Shown here piece after piece: positions 2,605 through 37,624 of a stretch of 40,697 nucleotides of DNA (position 1 is the stretch's first letter; every line of letters starts with the position of its first letter). A program made the translations under genes and the position numbers. The notes beneath the pieces were generated by a model, which searched no databases, had not been told where the DNA came from, and was given only the letters and a program-made list of their open reading frames with translations. The stretch comes from Alphaproteobacteria bacterium HGW-Alphaproteobacteria-2. Its GTDB lineage: Bacteria > Pseudomonadota > Alphaproteobacteria > Rhodobacterales > Rhodobacteraceae. The DNA is taken from the NCBI GenBank assembly GCA_002842835.1, contig PHEG01000002.1, forward strand, positions 1 through 40,697, given 5' to 3'.

Positions 2605-2992
2605 CGCTCACCTCCACGTCCGCCGCCACGGGAAGCCAGGGCCAGGGCGGCGAGACCTCGACCAGGTAGACGCCCGCGTCGATCAGCGTCAGCGGCTCGG
2701 TCATGTCCGTGATTTCCAGCGCCTCGCCCTCCTCATTCTGCACCCTGACCGCGCTGCCCGAGGGAAGACCGTCGAGCGGGACGGCAAATGGCGCGGGCCC
2801 GCCCGCTGGCAGCGGCGGCACGTCCGGACGCGGCACCACCAGCCCGCCCTGCACCATGTCGCGCGCGAGGTCTGCCGTGCCCTCGATCCACGCCTCGCCG
2901 GGGCCGGTGTTGAGCGCCGCCTCGGCGGCATCGCGCAGGCGCAGCAGTCGCAGGGGGCGGCCCTCGGCAATGGAATGGACGATGACCATCAT
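2597..2992 (-). CDS. Hypothetical tail-tip protein
   Basis: 131 residues; family not recognised. It starts at ATGATG (2992 or 2989), overlapping the stop of the hub gene. It has a helical N-terminal half (RLLRLRDAAEAALNTGPGEAW), a proline-rich linker (PRPDVPPLPAGGPAPF) and a beta-rich end finishing in the acidic VAADVEVSDA. The position between the J-like hub and the DUF4376-like gene suggests a tip or fibre accessory. Confidence 0.6.
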   Translation of the reverse strand: MMVIVHSIAEGRPLRLLRLRDAAEAALNTGPGEAWIEGTADLARDMVQGGLVVPRPDVPPLPAGGPAPFAVPLDGLPSGSAVRVQNEEGEALEITDMTEPLTLIDAGVYLVEVSPPWPWLPVAADVEVSDA

Positions 2993-5295
2993 CTTTTGAG
3001 CTCGATCAAGGTGAGGTCCAGCAGTTGTATGTTGTTGTTGTTCGGCGTCGCGGTGATGCTGACGCTGCGCGGGCCTGCCGCCATGAGCAGCGACCGCGAG
3101 TAGGTGCGGAACTGGCGCGTCGGGAAAAAGACAGTCTGGCTGCCCTCGCTTCCTCCAGCCGCTGATCCGGTGAAGTCATCCGTGGCGGTGATGATGGGCG
3201 TTCCATTGGCTGATATCGTCGTCGTGATGTCCCGCGCGGTGGCATCTATGGACCCGATGATGAGAATGCGTGAAGTCTGGTCGAGCGTGAAATTCAGCGT
3301 GAGCGGCTTGGTCGATGAGCTCGCCGACCGCAACGTCGTGATCGCATCGTCGGCCATGTTCCCGGTCTCGATGCCACCGCTGGCCACGTCCTGCGACACG
3401 ATTAGCAGGTCCAGCGTCGTCACCGGTGCCCAGGCCGTCCACTCCGCTTCGCGGTGAGGTACCAGCAACGTGCCGCGCAGCTCGTAGGCCGTGGCGGGCA
3501 GCAGTCCCTCGGCGATCACCAGCCGCCCCGAGGCCACGTCCTGCGTGCTGCCGGTCAGCGCCGGGAAGGCCGCGCCAGCCAGCCGCAGCTCCCAGCCGAT
3601 GCCGTCGGCGTCGGGCTCGTCGCCGTCCCATGTCACCTCGATGCCCGGACGGCGGGGCGCGCCGGTGGCATCCTCTATGGCGATGGCGGAGACAGCCAGG
3701 TCGTCCAGCGTGCGCGGGGGCAGGCCCACCCCCGCCGCCACCGGCGGTTCGGTCGGCTGCTCGTCGGCGGGGTCGTGGGCGAAGTCTGCCGCGTCCTTCT
3801 CCTGCAGCATCAGCGTGACGGTGCCCTCGCGCAGGCTGCGCTCGACCGCCGCCACCTCGAAGACCTTGGCCTGGTAGCCGAAGCGCTGGGACGTCCAGGC
3901 GACGGCGTCGAGAGGGTCGAGCAGCATCGCCTCGGGCGGGGCCGCGATGACGTGGCGGATGAAGCGCCGGTTGTCGTTGACCCAGAGCCGCTGCAGACGC
4001 TGCACCTGCGTGGGCGAGAAGACGGCGGGCAGGTCGAGCTCCGCCACGCGGCGCTGGCCCTCGTCGAGTGCCTCCAGGTCGGGGCGCAGCAGCACCGGCG
4101 CCGCGCGCGGCTCCCACACGCTCTCGGGCTCTCGATAGGTTGCAGCAAGGCCGTTCCAGACGTCGCCCGGGTCCGGGAAGGGCGTGTGACGGTCCTCCTC
4201 GGTCACGATCACGTCGTCGTCGGTGAAGAACCAGACCGGAAGCGCGGGCGGGCCGACCCGCACCAGCAGCCGCCCGCCGCTCTCGGCGTATTCGGCAGCC
4301 GCGGCCTTGCCGAGCTCGCCCAGCACGTCGCGCGGCTCGTCGTCGAGCCGCACCTCGAAACCTGCCTCGAACTGTGGCTCGAAGGTGGCGTCGGCGCGCT
4401 CCACCGGAAGATCGCAGGCGTTCATGGCGGCAAACCACTGCGGCAACGGCAGTTGCTCCGCCCGGTAGCGGCCGCCCCAGACGAAGCCCGGCACCGGCAG
4501 GCGGATGCCGCGCGCGACGTTGTAGGCCAGCACCATCGGGTTGCGGCTGGGTTCGTGGGTCGCGGGGTCGTCCCAGCGGTGCGTCCCGCTGCCGCCCACG
4601 CTGCTGTCCTTGCGCGGGTCGTAGACGGGGATGCCGACGACCTCGAAGCGCACCTCGGGGAAGCCGCTGAAGACCTTGCGCTCGAACTTGAAGGTCAGCA
4701 CGGCATAGGGCACCCCCGTGCCCACCATGTCGGCGGACCATGGAAATTCGGCCGCCTGCGCCTGCACGATGCCGAAGGGCCCGGTCACCGGCTCGGCCGG
4801 GTATTTGGCCAGCATCAGCGCGTCGGCCTCGGTCTGTGTGCCGTCGTGCCACCTGATCCAGGCCAGATCCTCGAACTTGCCAAGGAGCGGCAGGCCGAAC
4901 TCGGGATCGGCGAATATGCCGATCTCGGCATATTCGCCGTTGATGATCAGCCGCGAAATCTGGTGGCCCGGCAGATCACCCACGTCGAGGATGTAGTTGA
5001 GGAAGGTGTTGTTCTTCTTCCCGGCCTTGGAATGGGTCACCGCCGGGGCGGCGGCAGTGCCCGATGTAGCGTAAAGGCCAACGATGAAGCTCTGCGGGTT
5101 GACGCCACCCGTGAGCGTCTGCTCGGTGCGCAGCCCGGGCTTGGGCACCTTGGGCGGGGCGAACAGCACCGACTGCAAGGCTGAGACGGCCACCGTGACA
5201 AGCAGCTTGCCGAAGGTCGTGGCCAGGAAGGTGCCGACGGCCGAGGCCTTGAAGGCGGCGGCGGCGGCGGCGATGGCGGGGGCGGCGGCGGGCAT
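2989..5295 (-). CDS. Tail tip/hub protein (J-like, host-specificity)
   Basis: 768 residues, the central tail-tip protein expected to bind the cell surface and anchor the tail tube. The N-terminus has an alanine-rich hydrophobic start (MPAAAPAIAAAAAAFKAS) and a LATTFGKLLVTVAVSALQSVLF helix typical of J/GTA-hub-like proteins. A long beta-rich central region follows (about 90-500). A fibronectin-III-like domain spans about 540-640 (IEVTWDGDEPDADGIGWELR ... YELRGTLLVPH), and a beta-sandwich C-terminus runs from about 650. It follows the DUF6950 gene, as in many long-tailed phages. The serine/threonine-rich C-terminal 120 residues look less GC-extreme than the rest and may be the variable receptor-binding part. 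Confidence 0.8.
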   Translation of the reverse strand: MPAAAPAIAAAAAAFKASAVGTFLATTFGKLLVTVAVSALQSVLFAPPKVPKPGLRTEQTLTGGVNPQSFIVGLYATSGTAAAPAVTHSKAGKKNNTFLNYILDVGDLPGHQISRLIINGEYAEIGIFADPEFGLPLLGKFEDLAWIRWHDGTQTEADALMLAKYPAEPVTGPFGIVQAQAAEFPWSADMVGTGVPYAVLTFKFERKVFSGFPEVRFEVVGIPVYDPRKDSSVGGSGTHRWDDPATHEPSRNPMVLAYNVARGIRLPVPGFVWGGRYRAEQLPLPQWFAAMNACDLPVERADATFEPQFEAGFEVRLDDEPRDVLGELGKAAAAEYAESGGRLLVRVGPPALPVWFFTDDDVIVTEEDRHTPFPDPGDVWNGLAATYREPESVWEPRAAPVLLRPDLEALDEGQRRVAELDLPAVFSPTQVQRLQRLWVNDNRRFIRHVIAAPPEAMLLDPLDAVAWTSQRFGYQAKVFEVAAVERSLREGTVTLMLQEKDAADFAHDPADEQPTEPPVAAGVGLPPRTLDDLAVSAIAIEDATGAPRRPGIEVTWDGDEPDADGIGWELRLAGAAFPALTGSTQDVASGRLVIAEGLLPATAYELRGTLLVPHREAEWTAWAPVTTLDLLIVSQDVASGGIETGNMADDAITTLRSASSSTKPLTLNFTLDQTSRILIIGSIDATARDITTTISANGTPIITATDDFTGSAAGGSEGSQTVFFPTRQFRTYSRSLLMAAGPRSVSITATPNNNNIQLLDLTLIELKR

Positions 5296-29747: not shown

Positions 29748-30273
29748 CGCCGCCTCCCATGTCGTCGAGCACCGCGTCCACCAGGTCGTGCCGGTCGTCG
29801 CCCAGCCCGGCCACGGCCCTCAGGATGCGCCGCGCCAGCGTCTCGACCGAGGTCGCGCGCAGCCAGGCATGCGGGACCAGCGCCGCCGCGATATCCTCGG
29901 GCAGCGCGACCGTCAGGCACCGCGGCGCGTCTGCGAGCCCCTCGAATTCCCCGCGCCGCTCGGCGCGGGCGAGGTGTTTCCTGACCGTTACCGCGTCGAC
30001 GCCCATGCGCAGCGCGATATCGCCGACGCCAAGCCCGGTGCGCGCCAGGCGGACCGCCTCGGTGCGGCGCCACGCAGGAGGCCCGCCCTTGCGCCGCGGC
30101 ACGTCGGCTCCGGCAAGGCGGGCGCGGTAGGTGTAGGCCCGCACGCTGTCCGGGCTGAGGCCGGTGCGCCGGGCGATCTCGGCATTGCCGAGGCCGCTGC
30201 GTACCAGCGCGAGCACCTCCGCGACGCGGGGGGGCATGGCGAGACGGGCGCCGTTTTGCGCTGCGCATGCCAT
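29740..30273 (-). CDS. DNA-binding protein with two tandem helix-turn-helix units
   Basis: 177 residues. Two similar HTH units are visible, VRSGLGNAEIARRTGLSPDS at 24-43 and ARTGLGVGDIALRMGVDAVT at 77-96, joined by a basic linker (DVPRRKGGPPAWRR). This looks like an internal duplication of a resolvase/LuxR-type HTH. The C-terminal half (SVETLARRILRAVAGLGDDR) is helical. The ATG overlaps the MuB stop (TGATG). An early regulator or transposition accessory is inferred from place and fold. Confidence 0.72.
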   Translation of the reverse strand: MACAAQNGARLAMPPRVAEVLALVRSGLGNAEIARRTGLSPDSVRAYTYRARLAGADVPRRKGGPPAWRRTEAVRLARTGLGVGDIALRMGVDAVTVRKHLARAERRGEFEGLADAPRCLTVALPEDIAAALVPHAWLRATSVETLARRILRAVAGLGDDRHDLVDAVLDDMGGGDE

Positions 30274-31307
30274 CACCGCAGCTCCTCGCCGCCGCGGTTG
30301 GCCCAGGCCTGACGCAGGTGCCCCGCGCCCAGCGCCTCGCCGCCGCCGAGCGCCAGCATCGAGGCGAGCTTCAGCGCCTTGCCCAGGCCGCGCAGCGCGC
30401 CGGGCCGCCGGGCGATGGCATGCGCCAGCTTGCGCGTCTCCGCGTCCTCGATGCCCCAGGCGTCGAGGATCGCCTCCACGTCGCCCGGCACCACCTGGCG
30501 CTGCAGGATGCGCAGACCGATCCGGCTCTGCACCTGCGCCAACCCGTCCTTGTCCGACGTGCCACCCAGGCTCCCCCAGCGCCGGTAGACCGCCTCGTTG
30601 CCCAGAAGCGCGATCCCGCAGCCGAACTCGTCGTTGAAGTAGCGGAGCTGGTTGACCGCATCGTCCACCAGGTTCTGCGCCTCGTCGATGATCAGGAGCG
30701 TGTGGCGCCCGTTGCGCTGGAGCTTCGCGCCGATCGAGCGGTCGAGCCGCGCCGGATTGGCCTCCGAGACCGAGAGTGCCATCGCCAGCTCCTGCAGCAT
30801 CGCGTGCCGCCCGGCGGTGGAGGGGCGCATCGTCACCAGGTAGGCATGCGGCCGCGTCGCCGCGTAGTGCCGCGCGGCGCAGGTCTTGCCCATCCCCGCG
30901 CCCATCGTGACGACCGAGAACTCGGGGAAGGTCTGCGCGTAGATCAGCGCCTCGATCAGCCGCCGCGCCGTCGGCGTCTCCACGAAACCCGGCTCCGCGG
31001 GCAGGCCCATCAGCGCCTCGCGCGCCTCGTCGTGGCTGGCGATCCAGCGCTGCACGCGCCGCGTGATGTTGGGGTAGCTGCCGTTGTAGCTGGCCGAATA
31101 CCAGGCCGAGAGCGTTGGCACCGGCACGCCCGACTTGCGCGCGACGTCCGAGAGCGAGAGGTCGCCCTCCCGCGCGATGGCCCGCGTCCGCTCGACCGCC
31201 TCGCGCCATTCGCGCAGCGCCTCCGCGGCCAGCGGCGGCTCGGCCTCGGGGGCCTCCCAGCGGTGGCGGTTGTCGGATGTCTTGTCGCTCGTCGCAGCCT
31301 GTGCCAT
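30273..31307 (-). CDS. MuB-like transposition ATPase (target-DNA activator)
   Basis: 344 residues. The ATG at 31307 is chosen because GGAGG lies at proper spacing; an in-frame ATG at 31319 lies before it. The N-terminal HTH (SLSDVARKSGVPVPTLSAWY) is as in MuB. The AAA+ core has Walker A GAGMGKT (136-142) and Walker B TLLIIDEAQN (from 203). MuB-type proteins bind target DNA, stimulate the transposase and give target immunity. It lies downstream of the transposase gene, separated by a hairpin-bearing 68-bp gap. Confidence 0.92.
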   Translation of the reverse strand: MAQAATSDKTSDNRHRWEAPEAEPPLAAEALREWREAVERTRAIAREGDLSLSDVARKSGVPVPTLSAWYSASYNGSYPNITRRVQRWIASHDEAREALMGLPAEPGFVETPTARRLIEALIYAQTFPEFSVVTMGAGMGKTCAARHYAATRPHAYLVTMRPSTAGRHAMLQELAMALSVSEANPARLDRSIGAKLQRNGRHTLLIIDEAQNLVDDAVNQLRYFNDEFGCGIALLGNEAVYRRWGSLGGTSDKDGLAQVQSRIGLRILQRQVVPGDVEAILDAWGIEDAETRKLAHAIARRPGALRGLGKALKLASMLALGGGEALGAGHLRQAWANRGGEELR

Positions 31308-31375
31308 GATGTCCTCCATTCTGCACTTGCCTTTTCATCGCGCCGCCGCCGGGGTCCCGCCCGGCGGCGGTGGCC
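31308..31375 (-). other. Transposase-MuB spacer with a 10-bp-stem hairpin
   Basis: CCGCCGCCGG (31343-31352) and CCGGCGGCGG (31361-31370) form a perfect stem with an 8-nt loop between the transposase stop and the MuB ribosome site. It may tune the ratio of transposase to MuB through attenuation or RNA processing. Confidence 0.55.
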
Positions 31376-33247
31376 TTACTCGTCGCGCGGGCGCAGCACG
31401 CCGCGGTCCATCAGGTCGACCACGCGCGAGAGCGCCGCGCCGTCCCACTCCGGTACCTCCGCGGCGCGCCCGGATGCGCCCGCCACCAGCCGCACCGCCG
31501 CCGGGCGCGCCGCGGGCGCCTCCGGCGCGGGCGCGGGCAGCAGATCGGCCACGTCGGCCACGCTGAGCCGCCGCTCGGCCTCCAGTGCCGCGCGGGAGGC
31601 GCGCAGGAACTCGCCGCGCGCCCTGGCGTGCGCCCTCGCCGCGTCCAGGTCGTCGAAGCGGGCGTCCCCGATCAGCGGCGCCTCGGCGATGAAGCGGCCG
31701 TCCGGCGCGCAGACGCTGACCCCCGCGGCAAGGTCCTGCGGGTCGAAGCGCGCGATCACCTGCCGCCCGGCATGCTCCACGAGCGCCTCGCACCAGTAGC
31801 GGCTGCCGTGCAGCCTGATCTCGCCGCTCTCGCGGTCGGCGCGCACCAGGTCCGAGGCCAGCGCGAAGAGCCGCAGCTGCGCGGCGCTCGCGCGGGTCAC
31901 CAGCGCCGTCTCCATCGCCTCCGCGAAGGTCGCATCGAAGGACCGCCCCGCGCAGGCCGCGGCGCGGCGCCCCGGGCGGGCGTTGTGCCGCGCGATCTCG
32001 GCCGCGACCAGCTCCTCGAAGCGCTCGAAGGGGATCGCCCGGCTGCCGTGATTGTCGGGCTTGTGCTGCGTGCTGCGCCCGGTATAGGCGCCCGCGCAGG
32101 CCGGGTGCCTGGCGATGGTCTCGCAGAGATCGCCGAAGGCGCGCTCGATGGGCTTCGCCTGCCCGTGATAGGGCGTCGTCCAGTGCACCTGCACGCCGAC
32201 CGAGGTCAGCAGCCCCTCCGGCTCGCCCTCGCGAACCTTGAAGCGGAAGCGGTTCACGGTGCCTCCGGTCATCCACTTGCTCGCGAACGCCCGGCCATTG
32301 TCGAGCCAGGCATGCGCCGGGATGCCATGGCGCGAGAGGACGTCGAGGAAGGCCAGCCGCACCAGCGGCCAGCACTCGCTCTCGCCCATCCGCCAGCCGA
32401 CGATCTTGCCGGAATAGAGGTCCTGGACCGCCAACAACACCGGGCGGAAGGGCTTCGGTCGCCCGGGCAGGGTCACGAACACGTCGAAGGTGTGGCCGTC
32501 GGCGTTGACCGCCTCCAGCGGCGCGAAATGCGCCCGCGTGCGCCGCTGCGCGGGGTAGACCCGCTGCGCCTTCTCGCGCCCGGCCCGCGCCATCACCCGC
32601 GCCGCGCGCGGCACCTCGCGCTCCAGCCGCCGCCGCAGCGTGCGCTCGGATGGCACGGGCGCCCAGCCATGCGTCGCCGCCGCATCGCGCAGCCGCTCGT
32701 AGCAGGCGCTGAACGCTGGGCACTCGGGGCGCAGGTAGTCGGCCACGATGCAGTCCCAGGCGCGGGGGTCGCAGTCGGCCTGCGCCGTGCGCCCGGCATG
32801 GCGTGGCGCCAGCGCGGGCAGCCAGTCGGCGCGCGGCACGCCCTTCACCAGGCGCAGCCAGCCGCGCAGGGTGGCGGCGGCGATGCCGTGCGCCTCGGCC
32901 ATCCTGATGACTGCGACGGATTTCCGACTGCCCGCCGCCGCATCGCAGGCCTCGACGACCAGCCTGTGGCGCCGCATGGCCTCCTTCCGAAGGCCCTCGG
33001 GAAGCCTCTCGAAGGCCGCCCAGACGGGGCTCTGCGGGCGCGTGCCGTTTCCTGTCCGCGCCAGCGCATGGCGCGCCCCGGCGGGCAGCAGGCTTACATG
33101 GTAGTGTACCGCGCCACCCTCGATGCGCCAGCGCGCCGGGTCGGCCTGCCAGGCCTCCGCGGCCAGCCGCCGCAGCCCGCGCTCGCTCGCGGGCAGGGCG
33201 GGGTGGCCCAGCTCGGCCAGCTCGGCGATGGTGACCCACTCACGCAT
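31376..33247 (-). CDS. MuA-type DDE transposase
   Basis: 623 residues (MuA 663). Start MREWVTIAELAELGHPALPA at 33247, overlapping the ParB-domain gene by 8 bases. The N-terminus is a Mu-type winged HTH for the internal enhancer, followed by end-binding HTH regions (about 80-230). The catalytic core has Asp250 in NADGHTFDVF, Asp316 in WLDNGRAF and Glu369 in AKPIERAF, the complete DDE set. A beta-barrel (DLVRADRESGEIRLHGSRYW) and a basic C-terminal tail follow. It cuts and joins the TTGACAC-containing ends for lysogenic insertion and replicative transposition. Confidence 0.95.
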   Translation of the reverse strand: MREWVTIAELAELGHPALPASERGLRRLAAEAWQADPARWRIEGGAVHYHVSLLPAGARHALARTGNGTRPQSPVWAAFERLPEGLRKEAMRRHRLVVEACDAAAGSRKSVAVIRMAEAHGIAAATLRGWLRLVKGVPRADWLPALAPRHAGRTAQADCDPRAWDCIVADYLRPECPAFSACYERLRDAAATHGWAPVPSERTLRRRLEREVPRAARVMARAGREKAQRVYPAQRRTRAHFAPLEAVNADGHTFDVFVTLPGRPKPFRPVLLAVQDLYSGKIVGWRMGESECWPLVRLAFLDVLSRHGIPAHAWLDNGRAFASKWMTGGTVNRFRFKVREGEPEGLLTSVGVQVHWTTPYHGQAKPIERAFGDLCETIARHPACAGAYTGRSTQHKPDNHGSRAIPFERFEELVAAEIARHNARPGRRAAACAGRSFDATFAEAMETALVTRASAAQLRLFALASDLVRADRESGEIRLHGSRYWCEALVEHAGRQVIARFDPQDLAAGVSVCAPDGRFIAEAPLIGDARFDDLDAARAHARARGEFLRASRAALEAERRLSVADVADLLPAPAPEAPAARPAAVRLVAGASGRAAEVPEWDGAALSRVVDLMDRGVLRPRDE

Positions 33248-34058
33248 CGCGCGCCTCGGCGTCGGCCAGCGCGGCATGCAGGGCGCGGCGCAGGATCGAG
33301 GCAAACTCGGCCCGTTCCGCGCGGTTGAGACGGCTGAAGGCGGCGATCGCCTTCGCGGCGCGGGCGCCGCCGTTCTTCTCCACATCGCCGCCGGTGGCGC
33401 GCAGCGCCTCGCGCACCGGCGCGCCGGAGCGGATCATCTCGGCCGCGCGCAGCTGGAACTCTTCCGGTACGTTGTCGGCGAAGCGCAGCAGGATGCGCTG
33501 GTTGTCCGCCTCCGGCGTACCCGAGAGCGCCGCGCGCAGCTCGGGCCTTATCTTCAGCGCGATCTCCTGGGCGTACATGATCGAGCGCTTGGAAAGTCCG
33601 ATCTTCTCCTGCGCATAAACTGTCCAGCCAGCGAAGCCGGACGCCTCCGACCAAAGTGCAATGTTTGCACTTTGGTCGCCGCCGCGCTTCACGGGCCCGT
33701 ATTTCTGCTCGAAGACCTCGCGCCAGCGCACGATGTGCATCGCCCGGTCGAGCTTGCTCAGCTCGTTGCGCACCGCGTTCTCGGCGATCTCCATCAGGAT
33801 CGCATCGAAGCCGTCCGCCTCGACCACCATCGCCGGGATCGTCTCGCGCCCCAGCAGCCGGTGTGCCCGCAGCCGGTGCGCGCCGCACACCAGCACATAG
33901 CGCCCCTCCGCGCCCGGTCCGCGCACGGTGATGGGGTTGATCAGCCCGCGCTGGGCGATGCTGCTCGCCAGCGCCTCGGCGATATCCTCGCTGACCGCGC
34001 GCAGCCGCTCGGGGGCGGCGTCGACCAGCCCGGTCTCGATCTCGCGGAATTCAGCCAC
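33240..34058 (-). CDS. ParB/Srx-domain protein upstream of the transposase
   Basis: 272 residues. The N-terminal ParB-like domain shows IAQRGLINPITVRGPGAEGR, YVLVCGAHRLRAHRLLGRET and DAILMEIAENAVRNELSKLD, with the GxHR motif of CTP-binding ParB proteins and the downstream ENxxR. A helix-turn-helix follows (EKIGLSKRSIMYAQEIALKI), then a helical C-terminus. Similar genes precede transposase in RcapMu-like phages. No ParA partner is present, so it is more likely a DNA-binding accessory than a plasmid-type partition protein. Its own coding DNA holds a long palindrome (33648-33678). Confidence 0.88.
   Translation of the reverse strand: MAEFREIETGLVDAAPERLRAVSEDIAEALASSIAQRGLINPITVRGPGAEGRYVLVCGAHRLRAHRLLGRETIPAMVVEADGFDAILMEIAENAVRNELSKLDRAMHIVRWREVFEQKYGPVKRGGDQSANIALWSEASGFAGWTVYAQEKIGLSKRSIMYAQEIALKIRPELRAALSGTPEADNQRILLRFADNVPEEFQLRAAEMIRSGAPVREALRATGGDVEKNGGARAAKAIAAFSRLNRAERAEFASILRRALHAALADAEARDA
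33648..33678. repeat. 13-bp-arm palindrome inside the ParB-domain gene
   Basis: CGACCAAAGTGCA (33648-33660) and TGCACTTTGGTCG (33666-33678) are perfect inverted repeats around a 5-bp spacer (ATGTT). The core CAAAGTGC also occurs in the early promoter region (36768-36778). It encodes DQSANIALWS in the ParB-domain protein. Candidate binding site for the ParB-domain protein or repressor, or an RNA hairpin. Confidence 0.75.
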
Positions 34059-36763: not shown

Positions 36764-36868
36764 ATTGGCACTTTGCCCGCACACTTCACATCAGTCAATG
36801 CCTTTTTACACTTTCGGCAGCGCAGGCCACGGCTATGCAAGCTTTACGAATCGGTGCATATAAGCACC
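36764..36868. promoter_or_regulatory. Divergent early/repressor promoter-operator region
   Basis: Lies between the Ner-like gene (minus) and the repressor gene (plus) and is AT-richer than the rest of the phage. On the minus strand TTGACT (36793-36798) and CAAAGT (36770-36775) are spaced by 17 bp as -35/-10. The -10 sits in the palindrome GGCAAAGTGCC (36768-36778). CACTT occurs at 36769, 36782 and 36809, possible repeated operator half-sites. The repressor promoter is less clear (GCATATAA at about 36856-36863 could be its -10). Confidence 0.55.
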
Positions 36869-37624
36869 ATGGACGCGGGGGATTTGCTGGATATCATCGA
36901 GGCGAGACGCCGAGAGCTTGGCTTGACCCAGGCCGACGTCGCACGCCGGGCTGGCCGTAAGTCCAGCACTGGCACCGCCCTCATCCAGAACGTGAAGCGA
37001 GGCAAGAGCCCGACACTACAAAACATCAGTGCCATATGCGACGCCCTCGACCTTGAACTTTACATCGGCCCCCGGCGTGGTCCGGCCCTCTCCCCGGAAC
37101 AACAGGTCGACAAGCTCGCCATGGACGAGCTGCGCGCCGCCATGGCCAGCGCGATGGTTCCGCGCCTCGAAGTCACGGGCGTGGGTATCGAGGATCAGGG
37201 CTATGCCGCCATTCCGGTCTACGATGTCGACGCCGCCGCCGGAAACGGCTTTGTCCCCCTGTCCGAGGCCGCGCCAGGCAGCATCGCCTTCACCCGCGCC
37301 TGGCTCATGCGCCATGGCCTTGCCGCCGATCTCGCCGGTATCGTGCGCGTGCGCGGCGACAGCATGGCGCCCACAATTCCAGACGGGGCGCATGTGCTCG
37401 TCGATTTCCGCGCCCGCGCCGAGGCTCGCGCGTCGGGCGTCTGCATCCTGCGCCACGACGGCGCGATCCTGGTCAAGCGCCTGGTCTGGCCGCAACGCGA
37501 CGGCGAAAGATGGGTTGCCCTCGTCTCCGACAACCCCGCGCACCTGCCTGTGTTCATCCGTGCCCCGGAACGCCCGGCCTTCGAGCCCCTTGCGCGTGTC
37601 CGTGCCGTTCTGTCACTTGTTTAG
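36869..37624 (+). CDS. LexA/CI-type prophage repressor (HTH-XRE + S24 peptidase)
   Basis: 251 residues. The ATG at 36869 (MDAGDLLDIIEARRRELGLT) is chosen because the HTH begins there; the open frame extends upstream to 36671 without meaning. Residues 5-62 are an XRE HTH (LTQADVARRAGRKSS ... LIQNVKRGKSPTL). The S24 serine protease-like domain has Ser165 in RGDSMAPTIPDGAH and Lys203 in ILVKRLV, 38 apart as in LexA. An Ala124-Gly125 pair (DAAAGNGF) could be the self-cleavage site. It keeps lysogeny by blocking early transcription and could be inactivated in the SOS response. Transcribed toward the nearer end, as Mu c. Confidence 0.9.
   Translation: MDAGDLLDIIEARRRELGLTQADVARRAGRKSSTGTALIQNVKRGKSPTLQNISAICDALDLELYIGPRRGPALSPEQQVDKLAMDELRAAMASAMVPRLEVTGVGIEDQGYAAIPVYDVDAAAGNGFVPLSEAAPGSIAFTRAWLMRHGLAADLAGIVRVRGDSMAPTIPDGAHVLVDFRARAEARASGVCILRHDGAILVKRLVWPQRDGERWVALVSDNPAHLPVFIRAPERPAFEPLARVRAVLSLV

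Follow-up and report, generated by a model that had tools for sequence, protein, structure and literature searches.

The chromosomal parS site is one conserved sequence found at several places. Palindromic sites and the ParB-type proteins that read them are well known, and a site may lie inside the gene of its reader, as does parS-359 in Bacillus subtilis parB (PMC4442127). In the repABC replicons of Alphaproteobacteria, parS is nearly always located in or near the operon of its ParB (RepB), follows the single consensus GTTNNNNGCNNNNAAC and serves partition systems that include ParA (RepA) (PMC9040568). The specificity of ParB and Noc is set by the recognition helix α4, where few residues suffice; switching involves four positions, 173, 179, 184 and 201, and N178 contacts DNA (Jalal et al., 2020; PMC7383237). 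Finally, KorB of plasmid RK2, a ParB-fold CTPase clamp, acts as a regulator, with KorA, at plasmid promoters (PMC11790492). The subject here is a palindrome inside a ParB-like gene of a Mu-like prophage in a 40,697-bp stretch (the window), a single whole contig (PHEG01000002.1) of the 2.93-Mb assembly GCA_002842835.1 of Alphaproteobacteria bacterium HGW-Alphaproteobacteria-2. Comparison of the gene with its relatives indicates that the palindrome is very probably a parS-like site whose cognate reader is the ParB-family protein encoded by that gene.

This phage family resembles chromosomal ParB-parS in combining a palindromic site with a probable ParB-family helix-turn-helix (HTH) reader and, as with parS-359, the site lies in the reader's gene. 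Unlike chromosomal parS, the phage site varies among relatives, occupies one fixed linker and is single in each phage scanned, and unlike chromosomal ParB, the phage proteins are without the ParA-binding motif. A site in or near the reader's operon is shared with repABC, but the single consensus and the accompanying ParA are not. As in the ParB/Noc switch, the recognition helix appears to set specificity, although the natural variation here spans more base classes. The fold resembles that of KorB, a CTPase clamp that works as a regulator, and the phage protein may act likewise; in contrast to KorB, there is one in-gene site and no KorA has been identified. What is new is that each gene carries its own variant site: searches of open-licence PMC text turned up no report of such an in-gene cognate site, and the site is unmentioned in the accessible text of four phage papers (PMC5488378, PMC10783043, PMC8601537, PMC6536676) and of a ParB-CTPase-fold survey from 2025 (PMC12704722), the main text of which lacks the terms "palindrom", "Mu-like" and "transposase".

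The site and its gene are arranged as follows (positions are those of the window).
33648 to 33678, no strand assigned: palindrome, predicted to be bound by the product of the surrounding gene.
33240 to 34058, minus strand: ParB/Noc/KorB-fold gene, 272 aa, GTG start; PF02195, phrog_3264, AlphaFold2 predicted local distance difference test (pLDDT) 92.6.
Layout of the ParB-like protein: N-terminal domain, residues 6-94; linker, about 121-140; HTH helices, 145-153 and 157-169.
33552 to 33590, minus strand: recognition helix codons 157-169, with coordinates computed from the gene start.

The palindrome makes up codons 127-137, in the linker that joins the N-terminal domain to the HTH, and sits about 60-90 nt ahead of the recognition-helix codons. 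Its arms (33648-33661 and 33665-33678) are 14 nt each, 100% complementary and separated by 3 nt, giving CGACCAAAGTGCAA TGT TTGCACTTTGGTCG; the half-site, counted outward from the dyad, is (A)TTGCACTTTGGTCG. A preliminary description of this DNA had recognised the palindrome but assigned it 13-bp arms and a 5-bp spacer, one pair too few. Perfect arms of at least 14 nt with spacers of at most 8 nt occur twice in the window, against an average of 0.025 in 40 dinucleotide shuffles of it. Allowing up to three mismatches, a second full site is absent from the window and from its own assembly (84.9% complete), and viral contigs scanned for the exact window site gave no match. Another perfect palindrome, with 15-bp arms and a 2-nt spacer, lies at 4908-4939 within a PF13550 phage tail gene on the minus strand (2989-5295) and is as improbable by shuffles.

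The assignment of the protein is well supported: the PF02195 match has an E value of 4.1e-12 (46.4 bits; cut-off 26.3), and the AlphaFold2 model is confident (predicted template modelling score 0.79). The overall fold, including the central HTH, matches structures of Noc, ParB and KorB: Noc 7nfu_A has a Foldseek E value of 6.8e-10, with further matches to 6t1f_D (Z 14.1, root-mean-square deviation 4.4, 185 aligned) and to KorB (8qa9_B, Z 13.3, root-mean-square deviation 5.1 over 198 residues). The least confident blocks of the model, residues 121-130 (75) and 131-140 (58), are those into which the palindrome codons fall.

Homologues were taken from 394 genomes of the same family and 385 of the class, viral contigs (the best 80 of 180, all 63, and the best 80 of 225), species genomes (the best 80 of 240) and named phages; a scan of the viral contigs with the window protein found no close relatives. 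A first set of 123 open reading frames at 116 loci contains 93 distinct linkers, and all sets together 233, after removal of 119 duplicates, filtered on linker identity above 85% with HTH identity not considered, and of 7 unaligned sequences. Palindromes lie in the same place in these linkers with widely differing sequences: a palindrome score of at least 9, for an odd or even dyad, is reached by 165/233 distinct linkers but only 19/895 control segments of the same genes. In the first set, 60 of the 93 linkers reach this score, compared to 12/93 for the best equal-length window elsewhere in the gene, and shuffling of synonymous codons yields p ≤ 0.01 for 48 and p ≤ 0.05 for 63 of the 93. Many spacers have a length of 0 or 1 nt, and T at base 2 and C at base 5 are almost invariant. 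The 135 odd-dyad genes use 74 different 7-mer half-sites, with dyads in the three codon phases 63, 53 and 19 times; ten half-sites are found in two codon phases, i.e., in more than one reading frame. The preliminary description had named, as a finding that would refute it, homologues that keep the amino acids and lose the palindrome; the reverse is seen: the linker amino acids are lost and the palindrome is retained. One relative, L030, has two adjacent palindromes within one linker.

The bases of the site follow the residues of the recognition helix. A residue-base code, with bases numbered outward from the dyad, was derived from 68 genes (odd dyads only, score at least 8; for L030, one of its two palindromes was picked by hand). 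Among 2,670 residue-by-base tests, the strongest coupling joins residue 161 to base 6 (z 15.8), followed by residue 162 to base 3 (15.2); residue 158 to base 4 ranks fourth (11.3), after residue 125 to base 9; residue 125 lies in the linker, and its codon can itself be palindrome sequence. At residue 161, E goes with G at base 6 (13/13), Q with G (9/10), K with C (16/18), R with C (7/7), and A, F, H, M, W or Y with A (15/15). At residue 162, R specifies G at base 3 in 31 of 34 genes and all other residues T in 33/33, and at residue 158, R is paired with G or T at base 4 (43/43) and A, E or N with A (7/7). In the AlphaFold2 model, these residues (i, i+3, i+4) line one face of one helix; in the window protein they are R158, M161 and Y162, coupled to dyad bases 4, 6 and 3, respectively. 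A by-eye alignment resting on a weak second-domain match equates residues 158, 161 and 162 with residues 174, 177 and 178 of ParB/Noc, as numbered in PMC7383237. In a scan of the whole protein (135 genes, permutation within clades), coupling outside the linker is highest at residues 157-163, the second HTH helix of the model, where the mean best z per residue is 9.6, compared to 2.6-2.8 over residues 1-112 and 2.6-3.2 over 164-272; residues 112, 113, 123 and 145, near the linker, also reach z 8-10.

With the code already fixed, 222 new loci were scored. These supplied 140 distinct new linkers, once 47 that repeated the first set, 45 that repeated one another and 4 unaligned sequences had been removed, and the prediction was scored on the 79 with a palindrome score of at least 9. 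Base 6 was predicted correctly in 67/68 genes (shuffled pairs: mean 0.44, maximum 0.63), base 3 in 67/77 (mean 0.53, maximum 0.71) and base 4 in 65/66. The even-dyad class, 30 genes that played no part in the derivation, obeys the code after a shift of one base, with 29/30 and 26/26 correct. Without a shift the results are 1/28 and 10/26, and a shift of two yields 5/27 and 3/19; the one-base shift was spotted by eye before being counted. Relatives from outside Alphaproteobacteria fit the code too, among them L239, L241 and L231, whose titles name Oscillospiraceae, Deltaproteobacteria and Acidobacteriota, respectively.

Close relatives in which one residue class has changed carry the corresponding base change in both arms. 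Nearest pairs were disjoint and matched on the N-terminal domain, and a class N161 to C, added after the new-gene prediction, was used in this analysis only. For residue 161, class and base change together in 26 of 62 pairs, both stay the same in 35, the class alone changes in one and the base alone in none; for residue 162 (63 pairs), the respective numbers are 17, 37, 0 and 9. In L288/L184 and L206/L199, whose N-terminal domains are 87% and 91% identical, Q versus R at residue 161 is matched by G versus C at base 6.

The phages RcapMu and RcWaterboi diverge strongly within one block of the gene. Their genes share 93-98% identity up to nt 360 and 87-100% beyond nt 540, while between these positions identity is 68%, 40% and 83%; the divergent block, about 150 bp, contains both the site (nt 411) and the recognition helix (nt 490). 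The RcWaterboi linker palindrome is imperfect (score 6) yet consistent with the code. The c repressors of RcapMu (L012, 2269-2985) and RcWaterboi (L010, 1075-1794) have a common C-terminal part and different N-terminal HTHs, and the c-ner regions of the two phages hold different palindromes; their lysogens are nonetheless reported to be mutually immune (PMC8601537).

Several observations weigh against a cognate in-gene site. Below score 9 are 68/233 linkers, 47 of them at 7-8 and 21 under 7, although many of the 47 nevertheless agree with the code. Base 3 is imperfect: among the new genes, it is T in 7 of 32 with R162 and G in 3 without R, and in the nearest pairs it differs in 9/46 of the same residue-162 class. 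The absence of the ParA-binding motif (0/233 homologues) counts against a classical partition role. Palindromes kept in place, with bases following the recognition helix, argue strongly that site and reader belong together, and to this extent the preliminary idea of a parS-like site inside its own gene stands. A dimer would read the two half-sites by its recognition helices, with residue 161 setting base 6, residue 162 base 3 and residue 158 base 4; the site would be housed in the codons of the loose linker that connects the HTH to the CTPase-fold domain, where any amino acids may be tolerated, and site and reader would be inherited or exchanged together, as one cassette.

The genes around the palindrome bear on what the protein may do.
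31376 to 33247, minus strand: MuA-like transposase (PF02914, PF09039, PF09299), start codon chosen by reading.
30273 to 31319, minus strand: MuB-like transposition protein (PF09077, AAA_22).
36869 to 37624, plus strand: divergent repressor, likely the c repressor (HTH_3 and S24 peptidase).
Together with an Ant/Bro-N gene and the ParB-like gene, these identify the window as a Mu-like prophage. The ParB-like gene lies directly upstream of MuA and MuB, its stop overlapping the MuA-like start, and MuA is found downstream in 170/207 homologues with 1.5 kb of room.

It is unlikely, but less so than the other alternatives, that the palindrome is a genuine centromere for partition, with a ParA supplied by the host or a plasmid, the in-gene position being incidental. 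The ParB fold would fit, as would the conserved, loosely defined CTP-binding-box motifs of the homologues (GxxRxxA-like in 228/233, ENxxR in 216/233) and the single site in the window and in each of the three phages scanned. The missing ParA-binding motif does not, no ParA is annotated in the examined stretches of RcapMu, StopSmel and Aussie, and Mu-like prophages are integrated and replicate through transposition. With a single site per phage, MuA downstream and no ParA-binding motif, KorB-like feedback on the early transposition operon is therefore favored over active partition, as a tentative guess, somewhat on the doubtful side. By this route, the dimer would load at the site in a CTP-dependent manner, close with CTP and slide, as do ParB, Noc and KorB, across the early operon (the ParB gene, MuA and MuB). 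A broader proposal, close to evenly balanced but tilting slightly towards doubt, is that these are self-addressed ParB-clamp genes with a loading site of their own in the linker codons. Reader and address would diversify and recombine as a single unit of about 150 bp, the diversity would be driven by selection against cross-reaction among co-resident transposable prophages, and clamp loading within the gene would feed back on the transposition operon. Sites of co-resident prophages were looked at in a few genomes and are anecdotal and uncounted; in genomes G678 and G755, neighboring ParB-like genes (L100/L110 and L101/L109) have different linkers.

A much less probable reading is that the palindrome serves as operator for another phage regulator (the c repressor, Ner or an HTH protein encoded downstream) and falls within the ParB gene by chance. 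A partial match to the palindrome lies near the early promoter.
36767 to 36777, no strand assigned: GGCACTTTGCC near the early promoter, with an octamer in common with the palindrome; judged a different kind of site.
The preliminary description had reported that the palindrome core recurs here and had proposed an operator linking ParB-like spreading to the early promoter. The recurrence is real, CAAAGTGC being present at 36768-36775 (minus strand) inside GGCACTTTGCC, although the coordinates given for the latter, 36768-36778, were one base off. The octamer occurs three times in the window, two of these being the palindrome itself, against 0.57 expected, and 3/100 shuffles reach three; its presence at the early promoter is coincidence or AT-richness. 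The operator link is not supported: only mismatched single half-sites are seen, and second copies of the site by the early promoter were not found in most homologous loci, nor was a second full site in near-complete scans of three other phages. What still speaks most for the early-promoter idea is an excess of sequences with one mismatch to AAAGTGCAA, seven matches against 1.27 expected, a number that 0/100 shuffles attain, with some near the early promoter; none of the seven places in the window has a dyad. At 36766-36814, two such sequences lie on the same strand, 40 bp apart; the pair possibly represents operators of another regulator, and each half-site is mismatched at a base that, by the code, residue 162 or 158 would read. 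These degenerate half-sites speak for the accidental operator, as do the exchange of the c-repressor HTH between RcapMu and RcWaterboi, whose repressors were compared by eye only, and the presence of TTGCACTTT, the window's arm, in the c-side palindrome of RcWaterboi. Against it, the site bases track three residues of the ParB-like protein (158, 161 and 162), both across the newly scored genes and between close relatives, and the full site is missing from the early region in the window, the three phages and most loci.

An mRNA hairpin (an element for translation, RNase or bypass) in which the stem rather than the sequence is maintained is extremely improbable: the arms would pair in the transcript and pairing is retained as the arm sequences vary, yet a stem has no reason to track amino acids encoded some 25 codons further downstream, or to be displaced by precisely one base in the even-dyad class. 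The frequent spacers of 0 or 1 nt and the almost fixed bases 2 and 5 also count against it. The weakest alternative, a mobile palindromic element (of which the Rickettsia palindromic elements are an example) inserted in a permissive linker, would suit a position within an open reading frame, a variable linker and more than one frame, but has next to no chance, the sequences of relatives differing in step with the recognition helix, and was rejected since the full site of the window is nowhere else in its own assembly.

If the ParB-like genes do carry their own sites, the family is a natural library in which DNA-reading helices come matched with their targets: each gene with its own site yields a residue-to-base code for an HTH family that is testable and readable from sequence, and there are natural pairs with recognition helices distinguished by a single coded residue. 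Selection against cross-reaction, if it operates, would resemble plasmid incompatibility. The arrangement offers a lead on why a Mu-like phage retains a ParB-like gene next to its transposase, and a route by which a DNA-binding protein and its target could evolve without losing each other.

Two named phages add minor observations. In Streptococcus phage phi-SsuZKB4_rum (L115), a Streptococcus suis phage, a distant ParB-like gene has a linker palindrome with a CGTCACAAGTTGTGACG core that agrees with the code at residue 162 and disagrees at 161. Ochrobactrum phage POA1180 (L009) is an exception among the loci searched for second copies, with an imperfect second copy (23/29 letters) located 4059 bp downstream of the linker site, beyond the transposition genes.
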